Position numbers and translations under genes: made by a program
Part shown: positions 1 to 33,677 of the stretch, one piece after another
Layout of the letters: each line of letters begins with the position of its first letter
Numbering within the stretch: the stretch's first letter is position 1
From: Cytauxzoon felis
Lineage: Eukaryota > Apicomplexa > Aconoidasida > Piroplasmida > Theileriidae
Direction: 5' to 3'
DNA: 33,677 nt
Assembly (NCBI GenBank): GCA_020283715.1
Contig: JAIQCW010000090.1
Location: 1-33,677 of the forward strand
Notes under the pieces: model-generated
What the model was told of the DNA's origin: nothing
Databases searched by the model: none
What the model saw: only the letters and a program-made list of their open reading frames with translations

Positions 1-90
1 CCCGAGAACGATCTACGGGAGTTTGAGGGGGAAGTAAATAGAAGAAGCTGTCTGCAAGACAACGAGAGGTGGATGTAACCTCAGGTGGAT
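1..90. repeat. Modular repeat cluster 1 (B, tag, A)
   Basis: The left edge holds a B module (GATCTACGGGAG core, then GAAGTAAATAGA), a tag hairpin GTCT-TGC-AGAC read on the reverse strand, and an A end unit (ATGTAACCTCAGGTGGA). The cluster is cut by the window edge. It lies downstream of the coiled-coil gene on the reverse strand. Confidence 0.85.
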
Positions 91-120
91 AGACCTTCGT
101 GTATATTTGTCATTTCTCAT

Positions 121-1025
121 TTAGATAATGACTTTGGCGTTTCCTGTGATCATTTTGATATTGCATGGTGATTTGAGATTGCATTCGATATCATTATTAT
201 TGAATTCGATGGTATTATTGTTATGATGATTGATGGAGATATCATTGAATGTTTGTTGTAATTTATAGAGTTTATTTTCGAGTATATATACATTTGATTT
301 GAGTTCATTGATTTGATTATTTTTATATTTAATTAATTGATTGATAAGATTTTCTTTAATTTTGATATTAATAAATAATCTTTTACTTTTATTAATTTCA
401 TTAAGATATAAATTTTGTCTTTGTATATCTTTATTTTTTAATTCATTTTCTAAATTATTAAGTATAATTTCTTTATTATTAATATTATTAATAATAATAT
501 TAAGATGATCAGATAATGATTGTAATTGTTTAATTAATTCATTATTTTTATTATTTAAATCATTAATATCAATTAATAATTTTGTATTTATATTTGTTAA
601 ATTAATTAATTTATCATCACGTTCTTTAATAATATTACTTAAATTATTAATTTGTTTATTATATATAATTATATTTTATTTATTTGTAATTTATATTCAT
701 TATTTATATTATTTAATTTTATTATTTTATTATTTAATTCATTTATATTTATTTCACAATTATGTAATACTTTTTCTAATTTTGTTATTCTATTTTCTTT
801 ATTTAATAAATTTTCATTAGATTCTAATATTTTTATACGTACATTATCTAATGCATTAAATGTTTCATTATATTTTAATTCTAATTCTTTATTTCTATCT
901 CTTTCATAATTTAATTCTTTTATTATTCTATTCAATTCATTATCATCATCATTACAATTCTTTAATTCTATATTCATATATTGTTCATTTATTAATTCAT
1001 TCGTTATCATTGTATCAATTTCCAT
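121..1025 (-). pseudogene. Asn/Lys-rich coiled-coil protein, frame broken once
   Basis: No recognised family. The frame opens with MEIDTMITNELINEQYMN at 1025 and stays open to about 670. It then resumes one frame over and runs to the TAA at 121-123. The two parts together are about 300 residues, almost wholly charged and Asn/Leu/Ile-rich with heptad-like leucine and isoleucine spacing (for example LEKVLHNCEININELNN), so a long coiled coil is expected. The ending (PCNIKMITGNAKVII) is less repetitive. The break falls in an AT-only tract near 660-680, where no GT..AG intron fits cleanly. It is therefore a one-base indel, natural or from assembly, or a very odd intron. I see no signal peptide or membrane segment. 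I call it a pseudogene only because of the break; if the break is a sequencing error, the gene is intact. Confidence 0.55.
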
Positions 1026-1149
1026 TCTTTAATTATACAATCATATACAATATTTATAAATAATCTATACTATAATATATATACACAAATGAATCTAAAT
1101 GGATTATATAACAAATATTATAAATTCATACCATACTATATATACATAC

Positions 1150-1290
1150 AATCCACCGAAAGTTATACAACCTCTCTTTGTCCTACCGTCAGCTCTACAC
1201 TTGAGGTCGTCCTGCCGTCAGCTTCTTCTATTTACTTCCCCCTCAAGCTCCCGTAGATCGCTCTCGGGTTCCACTTGAAGTCATGTAGAA
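1150..1290. repeat. Modular repeat cluster 2
   Basis: This cluster contains tag-like CTACCGTCAG, an A unit in reverse orientation, tag CTGCCGTCAG, a B module in reverse orientation (TATTTACTTCCCC, CCCGTAGATCGCTCTCGGG), then a second reverse A unit. It lies upstream of the coiled-coil gene start. Confidence 0.85.
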
Positions 1291-1377
1291 ATAGTTAATA
1301 TGGGCGGATATCATTAATATATTACAAGTTCTTCATTTGGATAATTGTAACTTAGGGGACCGGGAAAATTATTCAAT

Positions 1378-1667
1378 ATAAATGTCAACCAGGAAGAACG
1401 AAGATAATCAACCCCTAAGAACAGGAATTCTACCCGGAAGAACAGAACTCCACTTGAGGTTACAATCCTACTCTCCTTGCCATTGCATGGAGCTCTTTCA
1501 ATTACCTATCTCTAAAGAGTAGAGCCACTCCCAGAGATCGTGGCATTGAAATGGTAGTGATGTAACCTCAGGTGGAACCTGTAAGCGATCTACGGGAGCT
1601 GGAAGGGGAGATAAATGGAGAAGCTCCATGCAATGGAAAAGATGGTCCTCAGGTGGAGACAAGTAAA
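1378..1667. repeat. Modular repeat cluster 3 (D, A, tag, C, A, B, tag, A)
   Basis: This is a near-complete composite. A D array (units ending GGAAGAAC, CTAAGAAC, GGAAGAAC) spans about 1381-1445. A reverse A unit follows, then tag CCAT-TGC-ATGG (1480-1490). A C module carries CTCTAAAGAG and GCCACTCCCAGAGATCGTGGC. After it come a forward A unit, a B module with the AGCTGGAAGGGG arm, the same CCATGCAATGG tag in inverse form, and a last A unit. Both ends therefore carry the same tag. Confidence 0.88.
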
Positions 1668-1704
1668 GGACATCAGTTCCATAGTTACATTCAACATCAT
1701 TGTG

Positions 1705-2801: not shown

Positions 2802-2995
2802 TTAATATATCATAAATACAATAATGCACACATTTCTATAATCCTAAATCAATAGACCATATTATGGGGAATAATTCTCTAATAGATCTAATGCAAAATA
2901 AATTATAGACATTTACCCGATGAATCAATACCAATAAAATATCAACTCGAAATCCAATCACTATCGTCACTACCATCCACTACAAACTTTCCTTC

Positions 2996-3420
2996 GTCTT
3001 GCAGACAGCTTCTCCACCTGAGGTTACATTCCTGCCGTTAGCTCTTCTATTTACTTCCCCTTCCAGCTCCCGTAGATCGCTTCCAGGTAGTCCACCTGAG
3101 GTTACAACCACTTTCTCTTTCCACTCGCCGTGGTGGCCTTCCTTATTTACTTCCCCCTCCGCTTCCCTGAGATCAGCTACGGGTAGTCCACTTGAGGTTA
3201 CATCTATTATACTCTAGGCCCGTTCTTCCGGGTTTACAACCTCTGTTCCTCCGGGTAGAATTCCTGTTCTTAGGGGTTGCACATCTACTTTCTTCCGGGT
3301 AAACATTACACCGAGGATGATCTCAGGGAATCCGAGGGGAACTAAATAGAAGAGCCACCACGGCGAGTGGAAAGGTTGTAGTGGATGATAGTGACGATAA
3401 TGATTGGACCTCGAGTGGAG
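2996..3420. repeat. Modular repeat cluster 4, with inverted D array
   Basis: Order: tag GTCT-TGC-AGAC (2996-3006), reverse A, tag CTGCCGTTAG, reverse B (TTCCAGCTCCCGTAGATCGC), reverse A, tag GCC-GTGGT-GGC, reverse B, reverse A, an inverted D array (GTTCTTCCGGGT, GTTCCTCCGGGT, GTTCTTAGGGGT, about 3219-3300), a B variant with CCGAGG at both ends (3310-3340), tag GCC-ACCAC-GGC, and a forward A unit. It lies 3' of SEC63 (reverse strand) and 5' of the FAINT gene. Confidence 0.88.
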
Positions 3421-3488
3421 AACTTTCTTATAGATGATTATTTATGTTTATGGAAGCGATATATATAAGTTATAAAAGATTATGATGA

Positions 3489-6400
3489 TTAGTATTCATT
3501 GCATTGTATAATTTCTTCTTCATCTGATTCATCATTTTGTGTGAGTAATTCACCGAATATTTTTCCGATAGCTGATGGTTCATTATCGAGTGCAATATCA
3601 TCAGGATGTATTTTGGATTCATTATATATAGGTGGTTTAACATTGAAATCGATATTTATAGATTTATCACAACCGAAATAAGAATCACATAATGCTGATA
3701 CAACGATTGTATTATTACCAATTCTATCAGCTATAAATTGTAAATTATGTTCTGATTTTTTTTCTCTATTATTAATAATTGTATATGCTATAGTTTTATC
3801 TTCATCTTTATAATTAATTACTAATGACCATTCTTCATATTTAATCCATGGAAAATATGGAGCATGTATTGCACCACATGATTCATTATCTTGTAGATTA
3901 ATACGATTAAATATAATATTAACAGTAATTAAATCATTAAGATATATATCTTGTTCATCTGTAACAAATAATTTAACATTCATTTCTATCCTAGGAAATA
4001 TATTACAGAATTGTTTTATATCATATAATTGTTCATTAGACATATTATAAGTACCACGTTGTTCTTCAGGTGATAATATAATATAATCTTCAATATATTT
4101 AATACTATTTTTACCTTTATGTATATGATTAATAATATCATAATTAAAATGTGGTATCTGTAAAAACATTTCATTCTTATTAGATAAACCATGTATTATA
4201 CAACGTCTAAAATCTAATATCGATTTTATAGTTAATAACCATCCTTTACATATACATACATCTAGCATACATTGTGTTATTATCATTGAATATTTCAATA
4301 TCTCCTTCTGTACTAATTTCAATGTATCTGGTAAATCATCAATACGATTCATATGACATAATAATAATACAAAATTTCTAAATGTCTCTCTTGTTATATT
4401 CTTCTTCTTATAATCACCAACCACATCATTATATTTCTTCAATAATTGATCATCACCACTACGATATGGTATCATACAACATTCAGTCGAACATGCATAC
4501 ACCTCTGGTAATGCCTTATGTCTAGTATTCTCACTCATCGAATAATATATCAATTGCAATGTCTCTATCCTTATACCAGATGCTATACAAATTTTATTAT
4601 AAAATTTATACACATTCATCAATTCCATTCCACCCGAGGTCAATCCACCATCCTTCGTCCTGCCGTCAGCTTCTCTATTTACATCCCCTCGGATTCCCAT
4701 AGATCATCCTCGGTATTTTGTCAACCCGGAAGAACGAAGATGTCAACCCCTAAGAACAGGAATTACACACGGAGGAACAAAAGGTGTCAACCCGGAAGAA
4801 CAGACCTTGATCATAGGTCCAATCAACCTCGCGTTCTCTTGCAGAGAGCTCTTCTAATTACCTATCTCTAAAGAGTAAAGCCACTCCCGGAGATCGTGGT
4901 GATGAGAGGTTAGTGATTGGACCTCAAGTGGAACCCGTATCTGATCTCAGGGAAGCGGAGGGGGAACTAAATAGAAGAGGCCACCACGGCGAGTGGAACA
5001 GTGGTTGTAACCTCAAGTGGAGGCGAGTGGAATGGATAGTTAGATTGGACCTCGAGTGGAGGTGATTATGATTGACATACCGGTATATAATTTATGATAT
5101 TTGGAGTACCAAATGAAGAGTGATGGCATTACAATTAGGATGAATAAGAAAAGTATAGTTAGAATAGCAATTTGATTATTTTCATCAACAAGGAATCTAA
5201 TATAATAATAAAATAAGTAAATTTTAATAATAAAATATACCTAGGTAAACCAATACCAATTTTCATCATACCCGGACCATCCGGATTACCATATAACGCA
5301 TAATTCTTACGAGATGTCTATAATATATATGTCATAATGAAAATTATATATCATGTAAACATATCCATCCGAGGTCCAATCACTACAACCTATCTATACC
5401 TTTCGTCGTCCTGCCGTCAGCTTCTCTATTTAGTTTCCCTCCGCTTCCCTGAGATCAGCTACGGGTTCCACTTGAGGTCCAATCACTATACTTCGGCCAC
5501 GATCTCTGGGAGTTGCTCTACTCTTTAGAGATAGGTAATTAAAAGAGCTGACGGCAGGACGAAGAAAGGTATAGATAGGTTGTAGTGATAAGTTTTCATT
5601 GATGTTATATTATGTAACATACTTCATTGGTGAGTGTTCGATAAGCTTTGGTGATGAGTGTGAAATGTGCTGACATTTCTGGATCATTAGGGTTACGATC
5701 AGGATGATATTTAAGTGAGAGATGGCGATATGCTTTTTGTATATCTTTCTTATTAGCGTCAGAATTTAATCCTAGTAATTGGAATGGATCAAATCTCTTT
5801 ATATTATCATTTGGATTGATACCTAAAGATTTAAATATGAAAAAAGAAGTAAGTGAAACAGAATTTGTAAACCAGTAAGGATTATAGAAACGAAGTCATT
5901 GTCCATAGAATGTTCTCCACTCGGGGTCTATCCTGCCGTCAGCTCTTCTATTTACTTCCCCCTCCGCTTCCCGTAGATCAGCTACGGGTTCCACTTGAGG
6001 TCCAATTCTCATTACCTTCACGTTCCTCCGGCTAGAATTCCTGTTCTTAGGGGTTAAACATTACGTTCTTCCGGGTATAATTCCTGTTCTTAGAGATAGA
6101 CATTATACCGAGGATGATCTACGGGAATCCGAGGAGAAATAAATAGAAGAGGCTCCACGCCTAGTGGAACAGTGGTTGTAACCTCAGGCGGAACGGCGAG
6201 TGGGAACAGATGTTGTAACTTCAGTTGGACTGGAAAGGGTGGTAGTATAACCTTCGTTGGATATGACATTGTAAGGAATTTATGAATGGTAATAGAGTGA
6301 GAAACAAACCGGTGATAAGAGTGAAGACGATCCACCAGAAGAAGACGAGTAATAGGAATTGTAATAATTTACATGGTGTGATAATATTGGTGATTTTAAA

Positions 6401-6685: not shown

Positions 6686-6892
6686 TGGACAAGTACATAA
6701 TTATTGAAATATACATATATACATGAAAATACAAAATATATTAAAATTTATGAAATAACTATACCACAAACCGATTCCAGTCTATCCCCCAATCCATACA
6801 TCGTAGAAGTATTGTAACATGAGAGAATGTAATAAGCCAGATTAATATGGTAAACTAACTTTCATATAATTTATAGAACTACATCTTTTACA

Positions 6893-7304: not shown

Positions 7305-8824
7305 TTAGCTCCTTTTATTATTTTTAACTTTAAAAAATCCTTTAAGTTTTTGTAAGAGTGTAGGCTTATCATTTTCGTGTCTCTGTGACAGCGTACTTTG
7401 TTGTACATCCTTTAATACAAATGGTTTAAATCTATAATCATACAATCCAAAGTCATCCAGCGATTCCCATAGGCAGTCATAACTCAGAAATGATAAATCT
7501 GTAATCAATGAATATAATACACCATTATGTAAAGTGACCACCAAGAAATGATTATTACGATACATAGCAGCCAGTGTATTCGGCATCAATTCCGTCTTCA
7601 ATATTGCTAACCCAACTTCCGTCAATTGAGTAGCATATATATCGAAGAAGTTATACACCAAACTCAAATCCGATCCAATACGCAATAATGATAAGTCGAT
7701 ATCTGATGTTACATTCCCGTCGTCAGCTTCCTTATTTACTTCCCCCTTCGCTTCCCGTGGATCAGCTACGGGTAGTCCACTTGAGGTTACATCCTCTGTA
7801 GTTCCACCATCGCCACGATCTCCGGGAGTGGCTATACCGTTTGCGGGAAGTGAATTAGAAGAAGCCTCCACGGCAGTGGGAACTGTGGCCGTAACTTCAG
7901 GTGGAGCTGCAAGACCTTCGGTGGAGGTGATATTTGAAGGAGTGTTGTTGCTGGATTTTTCGGAGTGTATAGCTAATTTTGTTTGTATCTCATCATAGGT
8001 GTATTTATTGAGTATGGAAGAATAAGGTTCTTCAGCGATCCATCCATGTTTTATTGGTATATTGAAAAGTTGGAATAACTTTTTAGGATTATCATCGATT
8101 ATAGCATTTGTATCATCAAATTTGCAATTGAATATCAATCCAAACCTTAATGAACTTAATGTATCGTATAACTATAAGAAGATTATGATGAATTTTGGAC
8201 ATTTTCCAACAATCTCATGAAGATATCTCAATGAATATTGAATGAATTCTTAATCTCAATACTTCATTGGAGAGGAATTTGATGATTGTATTGAATTTTA
8301 TCATCCTCACTTCATTCCCATTTATATTCACTGAGATATCCCTCCAAACATGGATTCCGTCACTTTGTCCTTATCTCTCTGAAATAAGGTTTATGACCTC
8401 AGGTGGACTACCCGCAGCTGATCTACGGGAAGCGGAGGGACAAGTAAATAGAAGAGCCTCCACGGCGAGTGGAAAGACCTCAGGTGGAACGCCTAGTGGA
8501 AGACAATGTATACTGGATTAATCTCGGATATAAACACATGATTGTAACCTTCTTCTATTTACTGAGTTGTTAGTGTTATAAACATACCCATTCTGGATCT
8601 TCGTCAGGTAATAGTGATGCTATTGATGAGTAGATATAGTAAAAGCTTGTGCGAGTTTCATTTTCACCGATAGTAAATCGTCTTGAGAGTAAAAGAATAT
8701 TGATGAGACAGATAAATGGGCATTCGCCATCTGTGGATTGCAATAAAATGGGTACTATATGCGAATTGTATTTTATCCACTTGATTCTGTACATGACATG
8801 AGTGTCATTCTGGTCATTCTCCAT
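7305..8824 (-). CDS. MINDY-family (DUF544) deubiquitinase
   Basis: MINDY enzymes are cysteine proteases that trim ubiquitin chains, typically K48-linked. Exons are 8588-8824 and 7305-8171 (367 codons if nothing else is removed). Seen: the catalytic Gln-Cys pair with family spacing (LLQSTDGECPF, Gln29 and Cys35), the family block LFQLFNIPIKHGWI, then YATQLTEVGL, the catalytic-His region RNNHFLVVTLHNG, and a closing CLWESL. The donor at 8587 is GTATGT. Intron 8172-8587 holds repeat cluster 10. Compared with human MINDY-1, a short stretch before LYDTLSSLRFG is missing, so a small exon may be hidden in that intron. A second repeat copy (about 7703-7915) lies in frame inside exon 2. It is either translated (about 70 extra residues) or removed as a 213-nt intron; both keep the frame. 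The start Met is the first in the open frame. Confidence 0.87.
7703..7930. repeat. Modular repeat cluster 9, in frame in the MINDY exon
   Basis: Read on the reverse strand: A-like CCACCTGAAGTTAC, tag GCC-TCCAC-GGC region, C module with variant stem CCGC/GCGG-type (CCGT-TT-GCGG on the plus strand), GCCACTCCCGGAGATCGTGGC, A, B (GATCCACGGGAAGCG), and a degenerate tag (CTGACGACGG). No stop codon interrupts the MINDY frame. Confidence 0.85.
8396..8506. repeat. Modular repeat cluster 10, inside the MINDY intron
   Basis: A short copy: A, B (CCCGCAGCTGATCTACGGGA), tag GCC-TCCAC-GGC, and A with a trailing CGCCTAGTGG half-tag. It lies in the 416-nt intron 8172-8587. Confidence 0.85.
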
Positions 8825-9732: not shown

Positions 9733-9962
9733 CCACTCGCCTCCACCTGAGGTCAAATCCTACTATCCTTCCACTTGGCGTGGAGCCTCTTCTATTATCT
9801 ATCTCTAAAGAGTAATGCCACTCCCAGAGATCGTGGCGGAAGTATAGTGATTGTAACCTCAAGTGGAATACCCGCAGCTGATCTCAGGGAAGCGGAGGGG
9901 GAGGTAAATAGAGAAGGCACCACGCCTAGTGGAAGAGAGGTGGATTGGACCTTGAGTGGAAA
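9733..9962. repeat. Modular repeat cluster 11, intergenic RRP15/CSTF1
   Basis: Order: reverse A, tag GGC-GTGGA-GCC, C (CTCTAAAGAG; GCCACTCCCAGAGATCGTGGC), A, B (CCCGCAGCTGATCTCAGGGA), tag GGC-ACCAC-GCC, A. Both tags are of the GGC/GCC kind. The rest of the 513-bp gap is AT-rich with no gene seen. Confidence 0.88.
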
Positions 9963-10039: not shown

Positions 10040-12510
10040 TTACAGTGTTGGGTCATAAAAGTTTATAATTTGACATCTAATGTTATGAAGATTATTGAAT
10101 GTATCAACTAACCTGCAGTCTTCAGCTACAGTGATAACGGACATTTCATCATGTGAAGGTACAGCATCCCAAATTGGCGATCTAAAATGATGGAAATTAT
10201 TAATGAATTTTTAAATGATATTTCAATATACTTTCCTAATGCTTTAGTAATATCAACTTCAATTGATGCATTATTTATTGAATAAACTATAGCTTCAGAA
10301 TGATTAGATTTATCTAAAATTATTAAAATCTTCATAATAAATAATACAAACTTGTAGATAACACAGAAAATGTTACAAAATAATCATAATTATTCAAAAA
10401 ATTCGAAAATGTCCTTATAGAATTCTTACGCTCAATACCAAAATTGTAAATCTATACATATTATTTTAATCAATACATAATCCATACACTACACCTGATG
10501 TCCAATCCATCTCTTCATCTCCCGCATTATCTTCCACTCGCCGTGGTGGCCTCTTCTATTTAGTTCCCCTCGGATTCCCGTAGATCATCCTCGGTATAAT
10601 GTATACCCGGAAGAACGTAAATATGTGAACCCCTAAGAACAGGAATTCTACCCGGAGGAACAAAAAATGTTCAACCCGGAAGAACAGACTTCAAGTGGAG
10701 TACCTGGAAGCGATCTACGGGAGCTGGAAGGGGGAGTAAATAGAGGAGCTGACGGCAGGACGACCTACGGTGGAGGCAAGAGGAAGTGAGTTGGATTGGA
10801 TCTCAGGTAGAAGTGGAAGGAGAGGTAAAAAAGAGGTATCGTATTATTTTTAGATATACAAACCTCTTTGAGCATTCTGAGATCGATAAGTTTGGTAGTA
10901 TTATTTAATCCACTTGAGAGAATGTATCTGGAATAAGGTTCACATTTAACGGAGATGACAGGTAATTCATTATGTATACTATCCATGATATGTACAGCTT
11001 CTAATGATCTAGCATCCCAAATCTGAGTAATAATTTGAATAAATAAATGAATTCAACATACTACAATTGAACCATCACTACCAGCTGTGAATAATAATGA
11101 ACCTGATTGATTAACATCACAACTATTAATACCACCACCATGATGTTGATATATAGTCTCTCTTGATGTATAACATTTACCAGACACTATATCATACAAC
11201 CTTATTATCGAATTCGATGTCCCACAAAATAAAAAATCACCACATGGATGAAACCTTATAGAACGAATGTTAAATGAATCATATATACGCTCTATATTAT
11301 TATATTTAACAAATATAATAAATAAACTGTTGTCTAATCCACATGAGATTACCAACTTGTCTTCCAGTTCTACCATAGGTCGTCTTGCAGACAGCTTCTC
11401 CACCTGAGGTCCAATCCAACTCTCCTTCTCTTCAGAGAGCTCTTCTAATTACCTATCTCTAAAGAGTACAGCCACTCCCAGAGATCGTGGCTGAAGTGTA
11501 ATGGATTGGACCTCAGGTGGATTAGCCGAAGCGATCTCAGGGAAGCGGAGGGGGAGCTAAATAGAAGAGCTGACGGCAGGATTGGACCTCAGGTGGAGAG
11601 CTCCATGCAATGGAAAAGAGAGGTGTAGTAGATCTCAGATGGAGTATTGTATTGAGGTGTATGTAGGTGTCAACTAACGTAATTCGGTGACGGAGTAGAC
11701 AAATCCGTTGGTGGCATTGATATCGTGTATGACAATGTTGCAGTCGATACCACCAGATGCTAAAATGTTCCTATTAATGATTTGTATTTCCATATTATTA
11801 AGAGAACAAACCTCTTTGGGTGGAAATCTATTGCATCAACTTGTTCCAAATGGCCATTCAGACGACTTGTACACATGCCATTAGGTTTCCTGTGATTAAT
11901 CATCGATAATTCAAGTATGAATCATACCTCTTACAGACTGTATCATTTGTTTCTATGAATGGTGTCACATTTAATGATCCCGATACACCTCCAATAGCTA
12001 CCAATGAACAATCACTAGACTGTGCTATACATCTACATGGCTATATGAGGGGAGAATGAATGGATTAATAAATGAATCAACAAAGTTACTTTAAAATTTT
12101 GAAACTCGGCAAAATTATTATATGCCATTACTTTATATTTATATTGATCCTCCATATTCAACGTGTTATATTCACATAAAATCTCCTCCATCTTCTTGAT
12201 TCCACTGAATAATAGGGTATAGGTTGTAATCAACAATCCTTACCTCTCCAGTTCTAATTTGTCATCGCCTAACTCAGCAGTTACTATACTTCTTGAAGAT
12301 AAATATGCGCAGTTGTTGAAAATGTTATACAAATGATCCTTCCGGAGCATAGAATTAGGCTCTACCTTCATTTTACTCTTTATAATATCAGCTGCATCTT
12401 CTAGGCTATAAAGTATCGTTAAAATTAGTAACGCTATAGACAAATTACCCATCATCTAGTAGCTGTTGAGTTACAGCCTCGTAAAAAAATAATTTATCTG
12501 TCTTTACCAT
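10040..12510 (-). CDS. CSTF1: CSTF1 (CstF-50), WD40 subunit of mRNA cleavage stimulation factor
   Basis: CstF-50 is a WD40 subunit of the complex that binds GU-rich RNA downstream of poly(A) sites. Eleven exons: 12244-12510, 12090-12204, 11928-12040, 11812-11889, 11679-11770, 11062-11291, 10864-11022, 10365-10451, 10232-10329, 10113-10181, 10040-10076. Seen: an N-terminal dimerisation-type helix (YEAVTQQLLDDGNLSIALLI), then WD repeats with PCRCIAQSSDCSLVAIGG, VDAIDFHP, IRSIRFHPCGDFLFCGT, LFTAGSDGSIV|IWDARS, YILSSGLNNTTKLIDLRM and a closing VITVAEDC. The order and spacing follow human CSTF1 throughout. Exon 1 holds one extra base in GATGATGGG (12455-12463). Removing one G gives 447 codons in frame, so this is a real lesion or an assembly error. 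Introns 11292-11678 and 10452-10863 carry repeat clusters 13 and 12; the others are 34-50 nt. Confidence 0.9.
10488..10820. repeat. Modular repeat cluster 12, inside CSTF1 intron 7
   Basis: Order: A-like CACCTGATGTCCAATCC, tag GCC-GTGGT-GGC, reverse B with CCTCGG ends, a D array (10602-10690), A, B (AGCTGGAAGGGG arm), tag CTG-ACGG-CAG, and A-like units to about 10820. The host intron is 412 nt. Confidence 0.88.
11378..11642. repeat. Modular repeat cluster 13, inside CSTF1 intron 5
   Basis: Order: tag GTCT-TGC-AGAC, reverse A, tag CTCT-TC-AGAG (loop base lost, stem kept), C (CTCTAAAGAG), A, B, tag CTG-ACGG-CAG, A, inverse CCATGCAATGG tag, A. The true acceptor (AATAATATAG at 11292) lies beyond the repeat. 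Confidence 0.88.
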
Positions 12511-12682: not shown

Positions 12683-15600
12683 ATGTCAAATAAAATAGTT
12701 TCATTGACTACAGAATTCAAAGAATCTTATAGATTTAATAGTTTTTCAAATGATACATTTATAGTACTACCAGCTCTAAACGCCTTAATTACAAAGCATG
12801 ATGACTGTCTATATGGATTATCTATACCTAAATATGACCCTAAAGAGGATATTTTATTGAGTAAAGATTTTCTAACTGGTAAATTTCATGTTTTCAATGC
12901 CTTTCATCTCTACCATAGGTGCATCAGATGTTACCCGAGAGTACTACAGGAACATTTCAAATAATGATAGAGTTTTGTGCATATTAAACTCCAAAGAAGA
13001 TAATTTATACGAAACACCACATTACAACAACAAATGTGTCATCTCTGGTGGTGGTTTATCCACTTTTAATGTCAACACAAAAGGCGACGTGCTAACAGTA
13101 TGCTTTTGCAACAGCATAATTTCATCTTACCAAATACTATCCGACTCTAGAACGGAGGAAGCAACTTCAGCATCTGATGGAATCAGTGAAAGTAAACCGG
13201 AAAAGGATAATAAATCGGGTGGACACAATAGCACCACATCAACTAATCAAGTTGATTCATCAAGTAAAGATTGGATTTACTTAAGTCTATTGAAATCTAT
13301 AAAGGTAAGTTAATAAACCCCACGACCCCATAGATGATAATGAATTAATTCTAGACGAATTTAAGGAATATAACATCAATTTCATACCATACAAATGATG
13401 AGTATCTAGCATGCGGTATTGTCGACGGTAATGTAGTTATATACCACAATTATATATTATATCATACTTTCAATAACTTAAAATCAATGGTCTCAATCAT
13501 AAAGTAAGTAAAAAATATTTGGAAAACCCCATTTAAAATACCCCATTTCTAGATTTTGCCCGAATACTAATTGGTTGGTGGTTGGTACACAGATTGGTGA
13601 TATAATGCTATATGATATAAAGAGTAAAGTACCATTAATTAAATTTGAAGATCATATGAGTTATGTAACAGATTTGATATTTATAATAACTTTGGATAAT
13701 AAACCTGGTGGATTCATAACATCATCTAGAGATACAATCGTTAATTTCTGGTCATTAGACATTAAAGTGGGGAAAAATAAAAAGTCAATACAAATACATA
13801 AACCATTCAAAAGGATTTTAATACATCAATCGATATGCTCAATCAACATTGTCACCAATCACAAGTATAGCAACAATTGGATATTACTTGTCGCCACATA
13901 CGATGGAAACATAAAATTTATCAACCCCACCGATGATAATGTACTCAATGTATGTTTTAAACACAGAGATTATTAACTCCTCTACTTCTTTCCATTGTAT
14001 GGAGCTTCTCTACCTGGGGTTACAATCCACCTTTCTTCATCCTGGCGTCAACTCTTCTCCACTCGAGGTCCAATCCAACTCTCCTTCTCTTGCAGAGAGC
14101 TCCTGCAATTACCCATCTCTAAAGAGTAAAGCCACTCCCAGAGATCGTGGCGATAGTAAGGATGTAACCTCGAGTGGAGAACCCGTAGCTGATCTCGGGG
14201 AAGCGGAGGGAGAGGTAAATAGAAGAGCTGACGGCAGGAATGTAACTTCAGGTGGAACGCCTAGTGGAAGAGGTGAAGAGTAGGATTGGACATCGATTGA
14301 TATATCTTCATGAATATATAGGAGCGTTTATGTAGTTATGGTCAGGGTGGTTTGAGGTGTTTACGTTATATTGATTCTACTAATAGTTTGATATCATTGG
14401 GTATTAATGGTTCATTATGTATATATAATGATTCATTGCATATTCAACATCAATTATTGGGTAATATAGACCCCATATTCCATTTCAAATTGTGTAAAAT
14501 AAACCCCACTGTAGAATTGAAATCATTATCGGATGATATGTGTGATTATAGTTATTCTATTGAATGGTTGAATAGAGAGAGGTTGAAGAATAGTGTATTA
14601 ATGTTTGTATTAATTGGTGATGAAATTATACGTTTATTATCATTAAATTCTGGGGAGTATATAACTATGGGGTTATTTAATGAGGATCACAGGCATTCAG
14701 ATGTAGTATTGTCATTATCATATTCTGAAAAAGGTAATTATATTATATATTGTAATTATAATTTTTTTTAGAGGATATATTAATCAGTTCTTCTAAAGAT
14801 GAAAAAATTATTATATGGGATTTAATTACTCTTGTTGCTAATACTATTATTACAATCGATAGCTTATCATTAGCCTGCGTTGAAATCTCAAACTTGTAAG
14901 TTTTATAGGGTTATATGGGGTTTTTTATCCTCATTTTTTCATTTTATAGTGTTGATGAGAATAGATTTCATTTGGCAACATCTGGTGATAATGTACTTAA
15001 GACATTTGATATAAAATTAAAAGATAGAAATACATATATTGAACCACAATTATTAAATAGTAATAATTCTACAACAGCTATTGTACATAAAAAAGTTATA
15101 AATACAATCGCATTTTCACCCAATAATAAAGTATGTTTAAAAAACACCATATTTTTAAAGTTAAAAAACCCCATCTTTTTAATTAGATGTTGGCGACTGG
15201 AGGTGGTGATAAGATGATAGTAATTTATACATTAGAAAATTTGATAATTAAAGGGAAATGTATGGGGCATAAAAGATCAGTAATTTCATTAGAATTTATG
15301 AAAACAACAAAAATGATAATAAGTTCATCAGTAGATGAAACAATAAAAATATGGAATTTGAATGATTACACATGCGTCAAGACATTCCAAGTATGTAAAA
15401 TTTTCTAAAAAATAAAATTAACCATAGGGCCATACAAAACCAGTCATGCGCGTACTATTACTACCAAATGATATGCAAATACTCTCATCCAGCATGGATG
15501 GACTCATTAAATTGTGGAATATACGAACATCCGATTGTATACATACAATAGATAATCATAATGATAAGGTATGTCAAATGAACAATTTGTAGACTACCAA

Positions 15601-20493: not shown

Positions 20494-22466
20494 TTACAAA
20501 TTAGTATTTGTATCATTTACAATTGTATCAGAAAAAAATTTTGAAAATGAGGCCATTTTCAACAATGGGGGCTGCATTTTATATAATGTTCCGGTATTGA
20601 TCATTTCAATTACTTCATCTGTTGTATACGATTTTATTTTTTCATTAATTTCTTTACGTGTAAATAAATTATTAATTTCATTAAATGCTTCGGGCTTATT
20701 TGTAGCAACACCCAACACATTATGTCCAGCCATTAATATTAACTCCTCAACCTCATCCACCACTTCTAATTTCTAAGAAGACGTTGAAATAATTTTATGA
20801 ATATAACGTACCCTTATCCTAATTCTCTCATCATTATCCAAGAAATTATCATATATAAATACGTAATCTCTAAATACACAGCTATCCCATCCGAGTTTTA
20901 TATATCTTTAATTGAAATATGACGTTGATATAACAAATATATACTAACCTCTTCACTTGTAACTCGTCATTACCATATTCAACGGGTGAATGCAATTCCA
21001 AATTTATGCTCTATCATATTAGAACAATTGAAAAGTATATTAATCATACATACCTTAAATGTATTAAAAAAATTTTTACCATAAGAATCATGTGAACGAA
21101 ACTATAATAATATTAAATTAGTAAATTGTATATGGAATTAGAAGTATAGAGGGCAAAAAATTTTCTACATAGAAGTGATTCATGAGGATATATACATATC
21201 TATACTATATACTCTCACATACTATACATTATAATCCATCCGATGTTATCACCACCTGAAGTCCAATCCTACTCTTCATTCCACTCGCCGTGGTGGCATC
21301 ACCACCTGAGGTCCATCCTGCCGTCAGCTCTTCCAATTACTTATCTCTAAAGAGTAAAGCCACTCCCGGAGATCGTGGCGGTGAGAGGTTAGTTATTGGA
21401 CCTCAAGTGGAAGTGGAATACCTAGAAGCGATCTACGGGAGCTGGAAGGGGAAGTAAATAGAGGAGGCTCTCTGCAAGAGGAAGACAAGGTTGTAACTTC
21501 AAGTGGAGAAGATGGGGTAATAGGGGGGTTGTAGGGATAATAAACAGTGTTTACACTACATTTTCAATGTCTATTGATGATATATATATACTATATACTC
21601 TCACATGTTATACATTACACTAGACTTTATAAACATACAGGTTCCGAATATAGATAACATGTTGGTTGTTTAGAGAATTGAGCACATGATTTTATAATCT
21701 ATGTGGTGTAAATATTTTATAAATTTATAATTTCAATACCTCATTGGAATATTTATTTTCAAGATATACAAGCGAGAATTCACTTAAAAAAAGTGTTTTC
21801 ATACTAATGATATAAGATGGTTATCATTCTTCAACATACTCGGGAGATAATTTCTCATTAAGAAATTCTTTAAATTTATCTACATCTCTTAAATCAATAT
21901 CTACCTACAAGATTATAAAATAATTATATTCAACATACAAGTGTGTAATATTTAGATGTAACAAGACCATCTACAATTTTAAAATCAGGAAATAATTCTT
22001 TTAATTTAGGTGTAGTATTAATAATTTTAGTTTTAATCTCCAACTGTGTTTTAAAATCTAATTCATATATAATTACATTTTTATAATTCTTTAGTATCCA
22101 ATATGAAATTGTGTCTAATCCACATCCGATATTAACAAATTGTACTAATTCATCACTATATGATTCTATAAAATACTTTAGTATTTTTCTGATTGTAGTT
22201 ACTCTTAGATAATATACTATAACAATAATGTAGTATATGATATATCAACATACATATGTTTAGTACTCGATTGTGTCCAATATTTTCCACAAAATATTGT
22301 ATGTACTCATCTTCATAATAACCAACTTCTACTGATGCTCTAAATTAAATAGTAAATTACCGCATAATGTATATAACAAGATTTACCTTTTATTAAGCAA
22401 TGCTAATGGTGAACTCCGCTTGACAGCCTTATCGTCATCCTGCATAATATCATCAGTACAATCCAT
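20494..22466 (-). CDS. LCMT1: LCMT1 / PPM1, leucine carboxyl methyltransferase of PP2A
   Basis: The enzyme methylates the C-terminal leucine of the PP2A catalytic subunit using S-adenosylmethionine, which controls PP2A assembly. Ten exons sum to 371 residues plus stop: 22387-22466, 22254-22339, 21939-22216, 21840-21904, 21740-21803, 21639-21698, 21054-21101, 20949-21010, 20812-20905, 20494-20772. Seen in order: RASVEVGYYEDEYIQYFV, YYLRVTTIRKIL, the SAM-binding glycine motif FVNIGCGLDTISYWIL, the acidic strand YELDF, VDIDLRD, LFLSEFSLVYLENKYS, IIKSCAQF with CYLYSEP, VKRYIKLGWDSCVF and VDEVEELILMAGHNVLG. All follow human LCMT1 order. A tail of about 60 residues after that is parasite-specific. 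Intron 6 (21102-21638, 537 nt) carries repeat cluster 19; other introns are about 33-50 nt. Confidence 0.9.
21236..21500. repeat. Modular repeat cluster 19, inside LCMT1 intron 6
   Basis: Order: degenerate A, reverse A, tag GCC-GTGGT-GGC, reverse A, tag CTGCCGTCAG, C (CTCTAAAGAG), A, B (AGCTGGAAGGGG arm), tag CTCT-GCA-AGAG in inverse form, A. The insert is enclosed by a 30-bp imperfect direct repeat (21202-21231 and 21588-21617, two mismatches). Confidence 0.88.
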
Positions 22467-27051: not shown

Positions 27052-27324
27052 TATATAGAGATAACGATCCCATTATAATAATCTAAATTGTGACCCACCT
27101 ACTACCACTATAACATGTACCATCAGCGTGTATAAAATCCCAAAGACAGCCTTCAAACATCAATTAATTTACATCATTTATTGTAAAATATTAGTTATTT
27201 TTCATGTATTTTCCTAATTCAATTACACATTGAACTCACCGCAGCAGCGTACATGTACATCTGAGCGTTCATGTATCTCCAAAATTATAACACATATTAA
27301 ACCAGTTAAAAATATTTTTTGATT

Positions 27325-27559
27325 ATGACTAATGATAAATCTTGGAGGTTATGTATTTTTGCAATCATGACCCTAACTCTTATCGATTTAATAGATTTTT
27401 ACATTTTTGGGTATGTTTACAACTTTCATCACTCATCTATACCTAACTTCAGCCTGGGACCATAAATTATATACACAAAGACCACACATCCATATAATGT
27501 ACGTCTTATCACCACCCATGCTACTAACAAGCTTAGCCACTAAAACATCCTCTACCTGA
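27325..27559 (+). CDS. Possible 54-residue small membrane protein with one intron
   Basis: Not recognised. Exon 1 (27325-27410) reads MTNDKSWRLCIFAIMTLTLI and continues DLIDFYIFG, a plausible membrane segment. It ends at a strong donor, GTATGT, at 27411. An acceptor at 27480 (ATACACAAAG) keeps phase and gives a second exon with HIHIMYVLSPPMLL. The stop TGA (27557-27559) is formed inside an A unit of repeat cluster 22. The hydrophobic start, good donor and 54-codon coherent frame are the only support. A longer 5' part, or no gene at all, is possible. Confidence 0.3.
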
Positions 27560-27882
27560 GGTCCAATCCACCTCTTCATTCCACTCGCCGTTCCACCTGA
27601 GGTTACAATCCACCTTTCCTTCGTCTTGCAGACAGCTTCTCTATTTACCTATCTCCAAAGAGTAAAGCCACTCCCAGAGATCGTGGCGGAGATAGTGATG
27701 GATCATCAATCATGGAAATGATGGAAGACTGTGCTAAGGATGTGTTGGATGTAACCTCAAGTGGAAGTGGATTACCCGAGAGCGATCTACGGGAGCTTGA
27801 GGGGGAAGTAAATAGAGAAGCTGTCTGCAAGACGACCTACGGTGGATGTGGAAGATAGGTGGATTGGACCTCAGGTGGAGTA
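27548..27882. repeat. Modular repeat cluster 22 (A, C, F, B with matching tags)
   Basis: Order: reverse A, half-tag, reverse A, tag GTCT-TGC-AGAC, C (CTCCAAAGAG, one stem mismatch), an F unit (about 27693-27750), A, B (CCCGAGAGCGATCTACGGGA), inverse GTCTGCAAGAC tag, A, A. Both outer tags are the same type. It ends about 50 bp before the VPS2 start. Confidence 0.88.
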
Positions 27883-27929
27883 TACATTACATTAAATATT
27901 ATATATAAATAGTATAGATTATATTTAAG

Positions 27930-28588: not shown

Positions 28589-28619
28589 TATATAAAAACA
28601 ATGATTATCATAATCACAA

Positions 28620-29095
28620 CTTCTCCACCAGATGTTACAACTACTGTTCCACTCGCCTCCACCTGAGGTCATCCTGCCGTCAGCTCTTCTAATTACCTAT
28701 CTCTAAAGAGTATAGCCACTCCCGGAGATCGTGGCGATGGTAATGAGGAGGTACAGAGAATGTCAACCCGGAAGAACGAAAATAATCTACCCGGAGGAAC
28801 GAAAGATTTTAACCCCGAACAACGTGGACGTTCAACCCCTAAGAACATAGAATTCAACTCGGAGGAACAAAAGATGTTAACCCGGAAGAACAGACATCCA
28901 CTCGAGGTCCAATCCTATTCTTCATTCCCATTGCATGGAGCTCTTTCAATTACCTATCTCTAAAGAGTAAAGCCACTCACAGAGATCGTGGCGTTGTAGA
29001 GGTTAGTGATTGGACCTCAGATGGAACCAGAGAGTGATCTACGGGAGCTTGATGGAGAAGTAAATAGAGAAGCTGACGGCAGGACGACCCCAGGT
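28620..29095. repeat. Modular repeat cluster 23 (long D array, two C modules)
   Basis: Order: reverse A units, tag CTGCCGTCAG, C (CTCTAAAGAG), then the longest D array of the window (28763-28896, about six units, one degenerate), reverse A, tag CCAT-TGC-ATGG, second C (CTCTAAAGAG; GCCACTCACAGAGATCGTGGC), A, B (AGCTTGATGG arm) and tag CTG-ACGG-CAG. Confidence 0.88.
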
Positions 29096-29579: not shown

Positions 29580-31640
29580 ATGGTTATATTGAAGGGTACA
29601 TTTATGATTACAAAAAGATATAATAATATTATTGACAATTTATTATTACCGATATTTAAATATGAGATGGTTCGTAGATCAATATCATATGATATTGGTA
29701 ATAGAACATTATATAATGATAATAAAAATATATTTTTATTGAATAGATGTGATAATACATTATCAAATCATAATTTTAATGGCATATCAGCCAATAATAG
29801 AAATGAATTGATATTACAAAAAAATTATTATAGTAATAATAATTTATCAATATTTGATAAATTATGTAATAAAATTGAATTATTATTAGATAAAAAAAGA
29901 TTACAATTAAAAAATTTATTAGTAAATTATGGTGATTTATCATTAGGTAACTTAACATTTTCATGTATATTTAGTGGTCTTAAAGATGTTATAGGTTTAA
30001 TAACTGAAACATCAGAATTAGATCCATTATCTGGTGTTAGATTAAGATCTTATAATATAAATGAACTATTAAATAAATTACCATCAAAAGTACCAAATAG
30101 TAATTGCCCATATACTGAAGCTATTTTATGGTTATTATTAACTAATGAAATTCCAACATTAGATGATACATTACAATTATCTAATGAACTTAATAAAAGA
30201 TCAAAATTACCTGAACATGTCTATGATGTTATCGATTCTTATCCTAAAGATACACATCCTATGACACAATTCATTACAGCCGTTGCTGCACTACAAACAG
30301 AATCTAAATTCAGTAAAGCATATACTAATAAATCATATAATAAAGATACATTCTGGAAATTAGTACTAGATGATACCCTCGATCTTATTGCTAAAAATAT
30401 CGTCATCGCCGGCTATATCTATAATCGATCCATACTCTATAAAAATGTCAAACATAATTTTAATACCGATCCCAATCTAGATTATGTACGTAAAACCATT
30501 TCATATATACATTCTCATACAGGGAGCCAATCTAGCCAAGTTTTTTGGAGGTAACTCCGATATCTTCCAAAACAGTATGAGACTCTATCTCGCCATCCAT
30601 TCAGATCATGAAGGTATGTCATACGAACATTGAAACCAAACACAACTGAAATCAATCTGTTCCACTCGAGGTCCAATCCAACTCTCTTCGTCTTGCAGAC
30701 AGCTCTCCACTTGAGGTTACCTCTACCAACGGTCCAACCTCTCCTTCCACTCGGCGTGGAGCCTCTTTTAATTACCTATCCCTGAAGGGTAATGCCACTC
30801 CCGGAGATCGTGGCGGAGGTGAAGGTAGTCAGGATGTAACCTCAAGTGGGAGTTGAAAACCCGCAGCTGATCTCAGGGAAGCGGAGGGGGAAGTAAATAG
30901 AGAAGGCCACCACGGCGAGTGGAAGACCTCAGGTGATGTGGATTGTCCTCATGTGGATGTTATTTCGTATAATATAATTTCAATAGGTGGTAATGTATCT
31001 GCACATGCTTCTCATTTGGTTGGTTCATCATTGGCTGATCCTTATTTATGTTTATCATCTGCATTATGTGGTTTGGCTGGTCCATTGCATGGTATGGCGA
31101 ATCAAGAATGTTTGATATGGTTGAGGAATTTATGGAGTCAATTGGAGGGTAAGGAATTGAATTACGAGAATGTGAAGAAGATGGCTGAGGAGACATTAGC
31201 TCGTAAACAAGTTATACCGGGTTATGGTCATGGTGTATTAAGAGTTGTAGATCCTAGACATGTGGCAACATTTGCATTTATAAAGAAGCATTTCCCAGAT
31301 GAGCCATTAGTGAAGTTATTAGATATTTGTACAGAAGCTATACCGGATGTATTAAAGGCTACTGGTTAGTTTTGTAATTTTATATTTTAAAATAATTATA
31401 GGTAAAGTACGTAGTCCATATCCTAATGTAGATTGTTCTAATGGTCTACTATTACAATGTATAGGTGTTGATAATCCAAATATATTTACTGTATTATTTG
31501 GTGTATCTAGAGCATTTGGAATTTTATCCCAATTAGTATGGTCACGAGGTTTAAGATTACCTATTGAACGTCCCAAATCATTAACATTGGATTCTATTGA
31601 AGAATTATGTGTAGCACGATCAAGTGAACGTACACAATGA
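29580..31640 (+). CDS. CS: Citrate synthase, mitochondrial
   Basis: It condenses acetyl-CoA with oxaloacetate to start the TCA cycle. Exons 29580-30485, 30523-30613, 30987-31364 and 31402-31640 sum to 537 residues plus stop. Seen: [20 protein letters not shown] (substrate region), [19 protein letters not shown] across the exon 2/3 junction, the catalytic-His blocks [12 protein letters not shown] and [16 protein letters not shown], the catalytic Asp in [10 protein letters not shown], and the closing [18 protein letters not shown] and LPIERPKS. The N-terminus is rich in Asn, Lys and Arg and long (about 130 residues before the core), fitting a mitochondrial targeting region. The first Met (29580) or a second at residue 9 may be used. 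Introns are 37, 373 and 37 nt; the 373-nt one (30614-30986) holds repeat cluster 24 while keeping GTATGT and TTTCAATAG ends. Confidence 0.94.
30658..30957. repeat. Modular repeat cluster 24, inside citrate synthase intron 2
   Basis: Order: reverse A, tag GTCT-TGC-AGAC, reverse A, degenerate A, tag GGC-GTGGA-GCC, C with stem CCCT-GA-AGGG (about 30779-30788), A, B (CCCGCAGCTGATCTCAGGGA), tag GCC-ACCAC-GGC, then degenerate A units to 30957. Confidence 0.9.
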
Positions 31641-31707
31641 GATGGTCCAATAGAAGTCTTCATTTAAATTTTTCCATATTTAATAATTTTATATATAATT
31701 TATTATT

Positions 31708-33677
31708 ATGTTTATTTATCTTTTATTAATCAATGTAGTTCATACCATTGCATACATTAATACACTCAACGTATGTCTAGGTGTAAATCAACCGTAATCA
31801 TATCATTCTATAGAAATTTAATAACAATAAATTCACATTATTCTCAAATTTAGGTTAGTTTTATAATTACAATAAACTAATGAACCCTGAAAATGATGTT
31901 TTATACACAGAAGGTTTACCACCAGAAATACAACCCTTGTCTTTTACTCCACCTTGTCTTCCACTCACCGTTCTTTGTCCTGCCGTCAGCTCTCCACCTG
32001 AGGTTACAACAACCTTGCATTCTCTTGCAGAGAGCTCTTCCAATTACCTATCTCTAAAGAGTATAGCCACTCCCAGAGATCGTGGTGAAGGTAGTGATGG
32101 ATCATCCATCATGGGAATGATGAATGATGGTGCTAAGGATGTGTTGGATGTAACCTCAAGTGGAACCCGTAGCTGATCTCAGGGAAGCGGAGGGGGAGAT
32201 AAATAGGAGAGGCTGTCTGCAAGACGATGAGAGGTGGATGAGCGAGTGGGATGATGTATAGTACTGGACCTCAAGTGGAATACCCGTAGCTGATCTCAGG
32301 GAAGCGGAGGGGGAGATAAATAGGAGAGGCTGTCTGCAAGACGATGAGAGTAGGATTGGACCTCGAGTGGACTATTCATTTCGTTTATTAATATAATTAT
32401 AGACAATGTATATTGTGAATCGATAGTTAATAGAGTGAGATTTCCTACTCGTCAAGTTAGGATTGGTAATATTACAATTGGCGGTAATGAGCCGATTGCA
32501 TTACAGACGATGACATCATGTGATACGAATGATATTGATGAGACTGTGAATCAGGTATATTGTATAAATTATTATTGTTTTATATATATATAGATTATTA
32601 AAGCTAAAGAGTATGGTGCTTCAATGGTTCGTGTTACTGTACAATCTACAAGGGAAATTAAATCATCTATAAAGATTAAAGATAAATTATTATCACTTGG
32701 TTGTGATATACCACTTATTGCTGATATACATTTTAATCCAAAGGTATATTTATATGTAGAAAAAATTATATTATATTAGGTTGCATTATTAGCTGCAGAT
32801 ATTTATGATAAAGTACGTATAAATCCTGGTAATTATGTTGATGGTCGTAAGAATTGGGATAATAAAGTTTATGATACTGAAGAGGATTTTATTAAAAGTG
32901 GTGAATATTTAAAAGAAATGTTTATACCATTAGTTGAAAAATGTAAAAAATTGAAACGTGCTATAAGAATTGGTACTAATCATGGGTTAGTTTATTATAT
33001 TAAATATAAATTATATTATTATTATTAGTTCATTATCATCAAGAGTTATGAGTTATTATGGTGATAGTCCTAGAGGAATGGTAGAATCAGCTATTGAATT
33101 TGCTAAAATATGTATAGATTTAAATTTTCATGATATTGTCTTCTCTATGAAATCATCAAATGTATATGTAATGATAAATGCATATAGATTATTAGTTAAT
33201 GAATTTTATAAAAAGAAATGGGATTATCCAATACATTTAGGTGTAACTGAAGCTGGTTCAGGTAATTTTTATATTATTAATTATATATATAATCCATTTT
33301 ATTAGTTGATGATGGTCGTATAAAAAGTGTATTAGGTATAGGTACATTATTATTAGATGGTATTGGTGATACAATAAGAATGTCATTAACAGAAGATCCA
33401 TGGTTAGAATTAATACCAGCAAGAAAATTATTACAATGTGTTAATGAATTAACAAATAAAAAATATAATAAAAAATTATTAGAATTTAGAAATTTTAATG
33501 ATATTAAAAGACGTAAACTAAATTTTATTACCAATCAACTCTGGGATATTAATAATAAAAATAATTTCACCATACTCAATCCTAATGGATCCGTAGGATG
33601 CTATATCACCAAATCCAATCTCAATGATCCAGTAAGTAATTATTACTACATACAAATGTTCAATCCAACTCTCTTCG
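31708..33677 (+). CDS. ispG: IspG (GcpE), HMB-PP synthase of the apicoplast MEP pathway, 3' end off window
   Basis: IspG reductively converts MEcPP to HMBPP in the non-mevalonate isoprenoid pathway, in apicomplexans inside the apicoplast. Exons: 31708-31770, 31814-31853, 31911 to about 31955, 32403-32554, 32594-32743, 32780-32985, 33029-33261, 33306-33631, then an intron that runs off the edge. Exon 1 encodes a signal peptide ([20 protein letters not shown]) and exon 2 an Asn/Lys-rich stretch ([13 protein letters not shown]), the usual two-part apicoplast leader. The enzyme core shows [59 protein letters not shown], then [18 protein letters not shown]. After that come LRRKLNF-type sequence and the start of the plant/parasite-specific A* insert. 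The Fe-S cysteines lie beyond the window. The donor of the third exon is uncertain because repeat cluster 25 begins there. In this gene only the last two of six completed introns reach 43 nt or so; intron 3 is about 447 nt. Confidence 0.9.
31956..32372. repeat. Modular repeat cluster 25, inside ispG intron 3, with tandem duplication
   Basis: Order: half-tag, tag CTGCCGTCAG, reverse A, tag CTCT-TGC-AGAG, C (CTCTAAAGAG), F unit (about 32093-32150), A, B plus inverse GTCTGCAAGAC tag, A, then the same B plus tag again, A. The two B-tag stretches (32166-32233 and 32283-32350) are identical over 68 bp. Confidence 0.9.
33658..33677. repeat. Modular repeat cluster 26, cut by the window edge
   Basis: After the ispG donor GTAAGT (33632) the window ends in TTCAATCCAACTCTCTTCG, the same stretch that follows A units in clusters 13, 14 and 24. 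This suggests another repeat-bearing intron. Confidence 0.65.

Follow-up and report, generated by a model that had tools for sequence, protein, structure and literature searches.

Modular hairpin repeats of the Cytauxzoon felis nuclear genome and their in-frame copies within coding genes

Positions 1 to 33,677 of contig JAIQCW010000090.1 (assembly GCA_020283715.1, forward strand), here called the window, come from the piroplasm Cytauxzoon felis and are densely occupied by clusters of short repeat modules. The same family is found in thousands of copies across the nuclear genome. Its clusters follow one grammar and are built around hairpins whose stems vary but remain complementary, and a number of copies lie in frame within long open reading frames (ORFs), including that of the expressed antigen cf76. 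The repeats are probably short, non-autonomous, selfish hairpin DNA elements that resemble bacterial REPINs in design and are compatible with coding sequence.

Copy number and anatomy of the repeat

The window is part of contig C54 in an assembly of 8,623,106 bases (181 contigs) and was analyzed together with 200 kb from three further contigs of the same assembly, giving a sample of 233,677 bases. The sample contigs were picked from the best matches rather than at random, and their density of repeat cores (94 cores in the sample) is 1.39 times that of the genome. Clusters were called from repeated 12-mers (at least five copies) in the window and from repeated 10-mers in the sample. The original prediction had proposed, from the window, a dense modular repeat family of a piroplasm genome with 26 clusters over about 7.4 kb. 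Both callings return 26 clusters, the 12-mer set with one 12-base stub at the window end and one merged pair and the 10-mer set with a slightly different list; the extent was measured as 6,916 bases (20.5%) by 10-mer calling. The piroplasm origin is confirmed by cf76, a C. felis antigen that is 100% identical in the assembly.

The whole sample contains 156 clusters spanning 38,271 bases, with a GC content of 0.49 compared with 0.30 outside (for the C. felis genome, a size of 9.1 Mb and a GC content of 31.8% have been published, according to the available text of PMC3748084). The number of qualifying 10-mers was 1,246 in the real sample sequence and 0 in a first-order Markov shuffle. As had been expected of a multicopy family, the exact 19-mer core CCACTCCCRGAGATCGTGG has 2,489 matches in the genome (1,211 forward and 1,278 reverse), while its reversed control has 0. 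When scaled for the 1.39-fold enrichment of the sample, these figures extrapolate to an estimated 4,100 or so clusters and about 12% of the genome.

Outside C. felis, the exact core had no match in viral contigs and five isolated matches in prokaryote genomes, about four being expected by chance in 257 Gb. A protein search with the cf76 repeat found it only in the two cf76 entries among 212 candidates of 0.55 to 1.75 times the length of the 723-residue protein. Within the window, neither an Rfam match nor a tRNA gene was detected. Among the open-licence papers listed by the literature searches, none described these repeats in C. felis, and accounts elsewhere are possible. In the portion available, a survey of 64 apicomplexan genomes gives no transposable elements for C. 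felis and dismisses candidate miniature inverted-repeat transposable elements (MITEs) as likely false positives (PMC9141347).

In the tokenized clusters, the main grammar is (A' T')n - core - (T A)n, where A is the end module, T a hairpin tag, and the prime the reverse orientation. The core commonly reads C (F array) (H) A B; it may also read B' F array A B or consist of a lone half, for example, B T A. For the polarity count, clusters were first oriented by their core, and those with no called core were excluded. To the left of the core, 312 of 322 modules (158 A and 154 T) share one polarity and 10 A have the opposite one; to the right, all 355 (184 A and 171 T) are opposite to the left side. 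The left and right inner tags look independent, being of the same type in 19 of 79 pairs against a shuffle mean of 16.0, and a same-tag pairing of both arms was rejected as indistinguishable from chance.

The modules named in the original prediction (A, B, C, the tandem D/F unit, and the hairpin tags) are all real. The composite order that it gave for 11 positions holds at nine, where A' T' C A B T is seen (1378, 9733, 13983, 15840, 21236, 27548, 28900, 30658, and 31956); at 27548 and 31956, C is followed by an H module, and at 28900 a final A was not called. The other two deviate, in that the inner left tag at 11378 is a variant missed by the tag pattern, and at 4622 the outer A' T' is separated from the inner T' C A B T by B' and F modules. 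The earlier interpretation is supported but incomplete, as it overlooked the in-frame copies in coding sequence and the covarying hairpins. It also did not note that a single hairpin, in two inverted versions, makes up C and B, that polarity is opposite across the core, and that the composite at 7721-7916 lies in frame in a coding ORF.

B and reversed C have a near-constant loop, GATCTNNGGGA, between complementary stems. With one mismatch allowed in the loop, 305 matches were obtained, and 260 of them have a perfect 3-bp stem. Seven different stems occur, namely CAC/GTG (102), GCT/AGC (85), AGC/GCT (41), GAT/ATC (22), GAC/GTC (6), AGT/ACT (2), and AAC/GTT (2). Perfect stems were found in 66 of the 69 exonic and 194 of the 236 other loop matches, and Watson-Crick pairs occupy stem positions 1, 2, and 3 in 275, 280, and 272 of the 305, compared with shuffle means of 142, 112, and 103. 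A second, inner hairpin of C covaries as well (CTCT.AA.AGAG, CCGT.AA.ACGG, CCCT.GA.AGGG), its two most variable pairs being complementary in 106 and 107 of 109 copies versus 61 and 71 after shuffling. Tags with the loop TGC have the stems GTCT, CCAT, and CTCT. In single-stranded DNA folding, each of the two composites folded was predicted to form one long hairpin (11390-11620, z -4.74; 9735-9960, z -5.39). The F tandem unit, with arrays, for example, at 28763-28891 of the window, usually measures 23 nt (32 of the 44 spacings counted in exonic clusters). The reading frame therefore shifts from one unit to the next (NPEEQ, STPKN, LPGGT) and returns after three units.

Copies within coding exons and in cf76

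Repeat copies are located between genes, in apparent introns, and within the coding parts of ordinary genes. The least circular test of the last group selects cluster-strand cases by the openness of their flanks only. With at least 300 open bases on both sides, 29 of 31 cases are open throughout in one frame, and all 25 C cores are in the sense orientation; with 210-base flanks, 34 of 39 cases are open throughout. By an ORF-based classification, 39 of the 156 clusters are exonic and 117 are not. In the exonic clusters so classed, all 32 C modules are sense and in phase, as are 29 of 31 B modules, and the distance from C to B is divisible by three in 24 of 24 cases (34 of 59 elsewhere), these regularities being partly produced by the construction of the class. 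Non-exonic clusters show no clear bias relative to same-strand neighbours (30 sense and 20 antisense), so the strict sense rule belongs to exons.

The host genes include a HEAT-repeat ORF of 3,295 codons (according to Pfam, EF3/GCN1-like) that contains four complete clusters and more repeat sequence at its end, the coatomer gamma gene on contig C162 with three in-frame clusters, and a 1,210-codon ORF with three clusters and one weak, below-cut-off match to RPAP1. One cluster each is found in a DHHC palmitoyltransferase and, in frame, in the MINDY deubiquitinase of the window. Coatomer gamma was aligned with six of its 37 matches (Theileria orientalis, T. parva, T. annulata, Babesia sp. Xinjiang, B. 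gibsoni, and one further relative), and none of the six carries the repeat at the three sites, where some have short unrelated inserts. In MINDY, two T. orientalis entries, T. parva, and one further relative have an unconserved linker of their own instead of the repeat, and a shorter relative has a much shorter linker at that site. The AlphaFold model of the MINDY ORF, built on an alignment of 6, has a mean pLDDT (the program's per-residue confidence score) of 47, with values of about 30-38 and no secondary structure in the insert, and is a poor model that is too weak to establish disorder.

The two types of composite are unevenly distributed. C-type composites comprise 32 exonic and 73 other copies, and B'B-type composites comprise 0 and 21 (Fisher p 0.0018); single B halves are exonic in five cases and located elsewhere in 20. 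No frame is open across the whole cluster in 19 of the 21 B'B-type composites, but the same is true of 59 of the 73 non-exonic C-type ones, and closed frames are therefore not peculiar to B'B. This pattern fits C being the coding-compatible version of the repeat, although it does not prove it.

The best-documented host is cf76 (723 aa), which matches C114:6540-8708 with 100% identity over its full length, contains two in-frame composites, and was returned amid Theileria, Babesia, and other orthologues when proteins were searched with the repeat-bearing coatomer. It was reported, in the part of the publication available, that cf76 is a single exon whose 2172-bp ORF was amplified from complementary DNA (cDNA), expressed in vitro, and found to be serum-reactive (PMC3748084). 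The repeat is therefore present in the mature cf76 messenger RNA (mRNA); in other genes, it would likewise be translated. Between two public cf76 alleles, representing the 723- and 706-aa types, 47 of 61 differing columns fall in repeat 1 (aa 168-275, with bounds set here) and none in repeat 2. In the assembly, a 33-bp tag-plus-A unit occurs twice in tandem within repeat 2, and the two units agree at 32 of 33 bases. A C-terminal 30-bp tandem repeat, double in ten of eleven samples, has been described for cf76 (PMC3748084, available text); it is probably the same 33-bp unit, even though the stated lengths differ. The same source, as far as available, reports that N-terminal and central cf76 fragments are less serum-reactive than the C-terminal one (PMC3748084). 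Parts of repeat 1 lie in these less reactive fragments, and the repeat is unsupported as the dominant cf76 epitope. In addition, two of the cf76 subcloning primers in Table 1 of that paper (PMC3748084, as available) fall in repeat modules A and C and could match many sites in the genome.

It has to be considered whether the exonic copies are stop-free introns that are removed from the mRNA. Some clusters of the family do appear intronic, such as the one in the citrate synthase gene (30614-30986), which is presumably spliced out, as judged from its sequence, because the intron splits HSDHE|GGNVSAH. However, splicing does not require the long-flank cases to keep the frame and to be free of stops, as 29 of 31 do, and the cDNA-derived, single-exon ORF of cf76 (PMC3748084, in the text available) contradicts this explanation for that gene, which makes it very improbable overall.

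Repeat peptides consist to 60% of the residues AEGKPQRS, compared with 36% for host residues of the same 27 ORFs. Such peptides, rich in G, S, E, and P, might be useful to the parasite, for instance, as shared immune decoys or flexible linkers, and might be retained by selection rather than being selfish. The occurrence of the repeat in the surface antigen cf76 and the difference in stem subtype between exonic and other C copies would agree with this. On the other hand, copies also reside in housekeeping proteins (coatomer gamma and the HEAT/GCN1-like protein), 117 of 156 clusters are not classed as exonic, and the cf76 fragments with repeat pieces are the less serum-reactive ones, as far as the available text of PMC3748084 goes. 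Retention for usefulness is thus distinctly unlikely.

The diversity of C copies at the three codon positions is 0.158/0.067/0.211 in the 32 exonic copies and 0.122/0.120/0.132 in the 76 others, a contrast reached in 0 of 1000 shuffles. The inner-stem subtypes are CCGT (13), CTCT (12), and CCCT (7) in exonic copies and CTCT (59), CCGT (8), CCCT (3), and the rest (6) in the others. Exonic C copies thus favour GC-richer inner stems, and other copies are mostly CTCT (59/76).

Mode of spread and known systems

It is most likely that the elements are, or once were, self-spreading and handled as single-stranded DNA, since the inverted doublet, the compensatory stems, and the single halves match REPINs and the in-frame copies match Rickettsia palindromic elements (RPEs). 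The basic half-unit is hairpin-tag-end (B-T-A) of about 90 bp, and the usual element consists of two inverted half-units (A' T' C ... B T A) that can fold as one long hairpin, like bacterial REPINs. In the proposed mechanism, the single-stranded hairpin DNA would be handled by a copying machinery, with later tandem T-A growth and exchange of modules. Arms would grow or shrink through the gain or loss of tandem T-A units (33 bp in cf76), a process that may extend beyond cf76, and copies would exchange tags and stems yet retain complementarity. A sense, in-frame copy landing in a protein loop would be tolerated and translated because C, A, F, H, B, and the tags are stop-free in one shared orientation and phase and because the peptide is hydrophilic and probably disordered. 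Copies in other frames would persist in introns and between genes. Whether nuclear, REPIN-like, self-spreading hairpin DNA has evolved a coding-compatible C-type form and colonized the exons of essential genes appears to us evenly balanced.

RPEs were reportedly described by Ogata et al. in 2000 and 2002. According to the available text of PMC10969869, they are short palindromic repeats of about 150 bp, many of them in frame in unrelated host genes, with 44 insertions from ten families in Rickettsia conorii, and are said to be compatible with protein structure. The C. felis repeat shares the in-frame insertion into unrelated genes (29/31 open throughout), its retention in mRNA being taken from cf76 only. 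In contrast to the bacterial RPEs, it occupies a eukaryotic nucleus with some 4,100 extrapolated clusters, modular arms, and exchangeable tags and stems. The two are set side by side by description, and no kinship in sequence is claimed.

REP sequences and REPINs resemble the repeat in being inverted doublets of a short conserved unit that form a long hairpin with compensatory changes and also occur as single units; they differ in being bacterial, extragenic, and tied to RAYT (PMC3116915, available text), whereas the C. felis repeat is without a Y1_Tnp match and often intragenic. Yeast mitochondrial GC clusters are likewise GC-rich palindromes in an AT-rich genome that form tandem arrays, vary as indels within species, and change product size by insertion into VAR1/rps3 and ribosomal RNA genes (PMC4464245, as available). 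They are mitochondrial, 30-80 bp long, and number about 120 per genome (same source), in contrast to the thousands of nuclear copies in C. felis, in frame in many genes. The repeat contigs carry nuclear-type genes, namely citrate synthase and MINDY in the window and coatomer gamma on C162. PARCEL repeats, in the text available, are coding DNA repeats with dyad symmetry from bacteria and some eukaryotes that were proposed to be mobile, but they form 25-residue tandem arrays in ORFs with no assigned function (PMC2996958). The C. felis inserts, by contrast, are dispersed and interrupt conserved host proteins.

Internal eliminated sequences (IESs) are excised from DNA, and introners are removed from RNA, whereas the repeat copies of cf76 remain in the mRNA. 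A massive colonization of protist genes by short repeats is nevertheless shared with the exonic IESs of Paramecium (PMC8354472, in part) and the invasive intronic elements of Amoebophrya (PMC7789003, in part).

Several observations weigh against the proposed self-spreading, coding-compatible elements. In the flank test with 150-base flanks, 36 of 47 cases are open and 11 break, and the through-frame C cores are sense in 30 cases and antisense in one. Three of the 39 exonic calls are doubtful (C162:12835, C162:50230, and C162:90753), and the exonic share of 29/156 exceeds the approximately 7% calculated for random insertion with one frame in six surviving. The copies behind the stem counts are not independent, although the counts take them to be so. 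The codon-position signal is modest after control, as part of it stems from the differing subtype mix of exonic and other copies: without the inner hairpin, the values are 0.065/0.034/0.095 for exonic and 0.092/0.106/0.102 for other copies, with 18 of 1000 label shuffles reaching the contrast, and within the main subtype alone, it is reached in 61 of 1000. The better conservation of doublets than of singlets that would be predicted for REPINs was not significant (B, p 0.31; C, p 0.065), and neither an empty site nor a new insertion was seen. Direct flanking repeats, compared with shuffles, gave no target-site duplication at the 81 complete-ended clusters. RAYT/Y1_Tnp (PF01797) had no match in the genome (its control was positive in 5 of 14 genomes), nor had rve and DDE_3, whose controls worked. 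The single RVT_1 gene found (G000:C56:72901-76100) carries Telomerase_RBD and is telomerase; retroposition was accordingly rejected.

Among the many end tests, isolated signals (direct 3-mer at offset 3, 5 versus 1.2, 2/500 shuffles; inverted 2-mer at offset 2, 4/500) were not counted, and searches for Helitron and DDE_1 were uninformative, as their controls were silent.

The lack of an enzyme (RAYT, rve, and DDE_3 not found, RVT_1 only as telomerase) speaks for a serious rival in which no transposition is involved. The repeat would have spread via template switching, gene conversion, and recombination between hairpin-prone sequences while DNA is replicated, and quasi-palindrome correction would maintain the stems. 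The independence of left and right tags, the cf76 alleles that differ by modules at one site, and the tandem unit in cf76 agree with it as well. It hardly explains, however, how about 4,100 (extrapolated) dispersed clusters of constant grammar came to lie in unrelated unique sequence, and we consider it the less probable account, although one to be taken seriously.

A conventional MITE family, that is, inverted-repeat-ended derivatives of a DNA transposon whose transposase was lost or unrecognized, would account for short, dispersed copies with inverted terminal modules A'...A; such outer ends, called with fuzzy end patterns, form terminal inverted repeats in 81 of 156 clusters. That neither target-site duplications at those clusters nor rve and DDE_3 in the genome were found argues against it, and to our knowledge, variable-stem, constant-loop hairpins are not a trait of MITEs. 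The available part of the 64-genome survey also reports no class II elements in Apicomplexa (PMC9141347). A MITE origin is therefore unlikely.

Features of the window and implications

The repeat copies and associated features of the window are listed in Table 1. Two other features lie at 1705-2199 (minus strand), a protein with a FAINT domain (DUF529, PF04385), and at 26440-26568, a 24/48-bp tandem repeat in a large protein kinase ORF (23746-27072, minus strand).

Table 1. Positions of repeat clusters, modules, and host features in the window.
Feature	Position	Strand	Remark
MINDY-type deubiquitinase (Pfam PF04424)	7308..8171	-	single open frame; composite between domain halves
In-frame composite A' A' T5' C A B	7721..7916	-	read as GLAAPPEVTATVPTAVEASSNSLPANGIATPGDRGDGGTTEDVTSSGLPVADPREAKGEVNKEAD
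Citrate synthase intron (GTATGT...CAATAG) with composite	30614..30986	+	bounds from sequence; Citrate_synt Pfam on both sides
Putative intron (GTATGT...ATATAG) with composite	13950..14321	+	read from sequence; in a gene we take to be WD-repeat-like
Putative intron with two clusters (15607-15730, 15840-16096)	15569..16143	+	read from sequence; same presumed WD-repeat-like gene
Type composite T2' A' (variant tag') C A B T1 A T4 A	11377..11625	+	
A' left end module, type composite	11399..11410	-	TCCACCTGAGGT
Inner hairpin of module C, type composite	11457..11466	+	CTCT-AA-AGAG
Module C core, type composite	11471..11491	+	GCCACTCCCAGAGATCGTGGC, reverse complement of stem-GATCTNNGGGA-stem
Middle A module, type composite	11510..11521	+	ACCTCAGGTGGA
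Module B loop, type composite	11533..11543	+	GATCTCAGGGA; stem mismatched in this copy
Tag T1, type composite	11569..11580	+	GCTGACGGCAGG
Terminal A module, type composite	11586..11597	+	
Composite A' T6' C A B T6 A	9741..9952	+	
Cluster F F F A' T4' C A B T4 A	1381..1659	+	
Cluster B' F F F A B and second A B T A	2953..3460	+	B'B type
Cluster A' T1' B' F F F T3' C A B T5 A A	4628..5061	+	
B'B-type cluster	5912..6203	unassigned	reversed F array
Cluster A' T5' B' F F F F A B T1 A A	10500..10821	+	B'B type
Composite T4' A' A' T3' C A B T1 A	14003..14291	+	
Composite A' A' T2' C A B T5 A	15840..16096	+	
Composite A' A' T5' A' T1' C A B T3 A	21253..21512	+	
Composite A' A' A' T2' C H A B T2 A A	27551..27882	+	
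Cluster A' A' T1' C F F F F F A' T4' C A B T1	28643..29088	+	two C cores
Composite A' T2' A' T6' C A B T5 A A	30657..30935	+	within citrate synthase intron
Composite T1' A' T3' C H A B T2 A B T2 A	31945..32371	+	

Apicomplexan genomes are described as poor in mobile DNA and that of C. felis as having none, in the available text of PMC9141347. By extrapolation, about one eighth of this genome would belong to one unrecognized repeat family, partly translated inside conserved proteins. With regard to the published cf76 data, most differences between the 723- and 706-aa allele types fall in one repeat of this family. It becomes testable how selfish DNA lives in exons, how stem complementarity is kept where there is no known transposase, and whether a shared insert distorts the gene models, orthology calls, and serology of C. 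felis. If the proposed reading is true, one shared, disordered peptide family would run across a large part of the C. felis proteome, including the vaccine candidate cf76, and in-frame selfish DNA on a genome scale would extend beyond Rickettsia.

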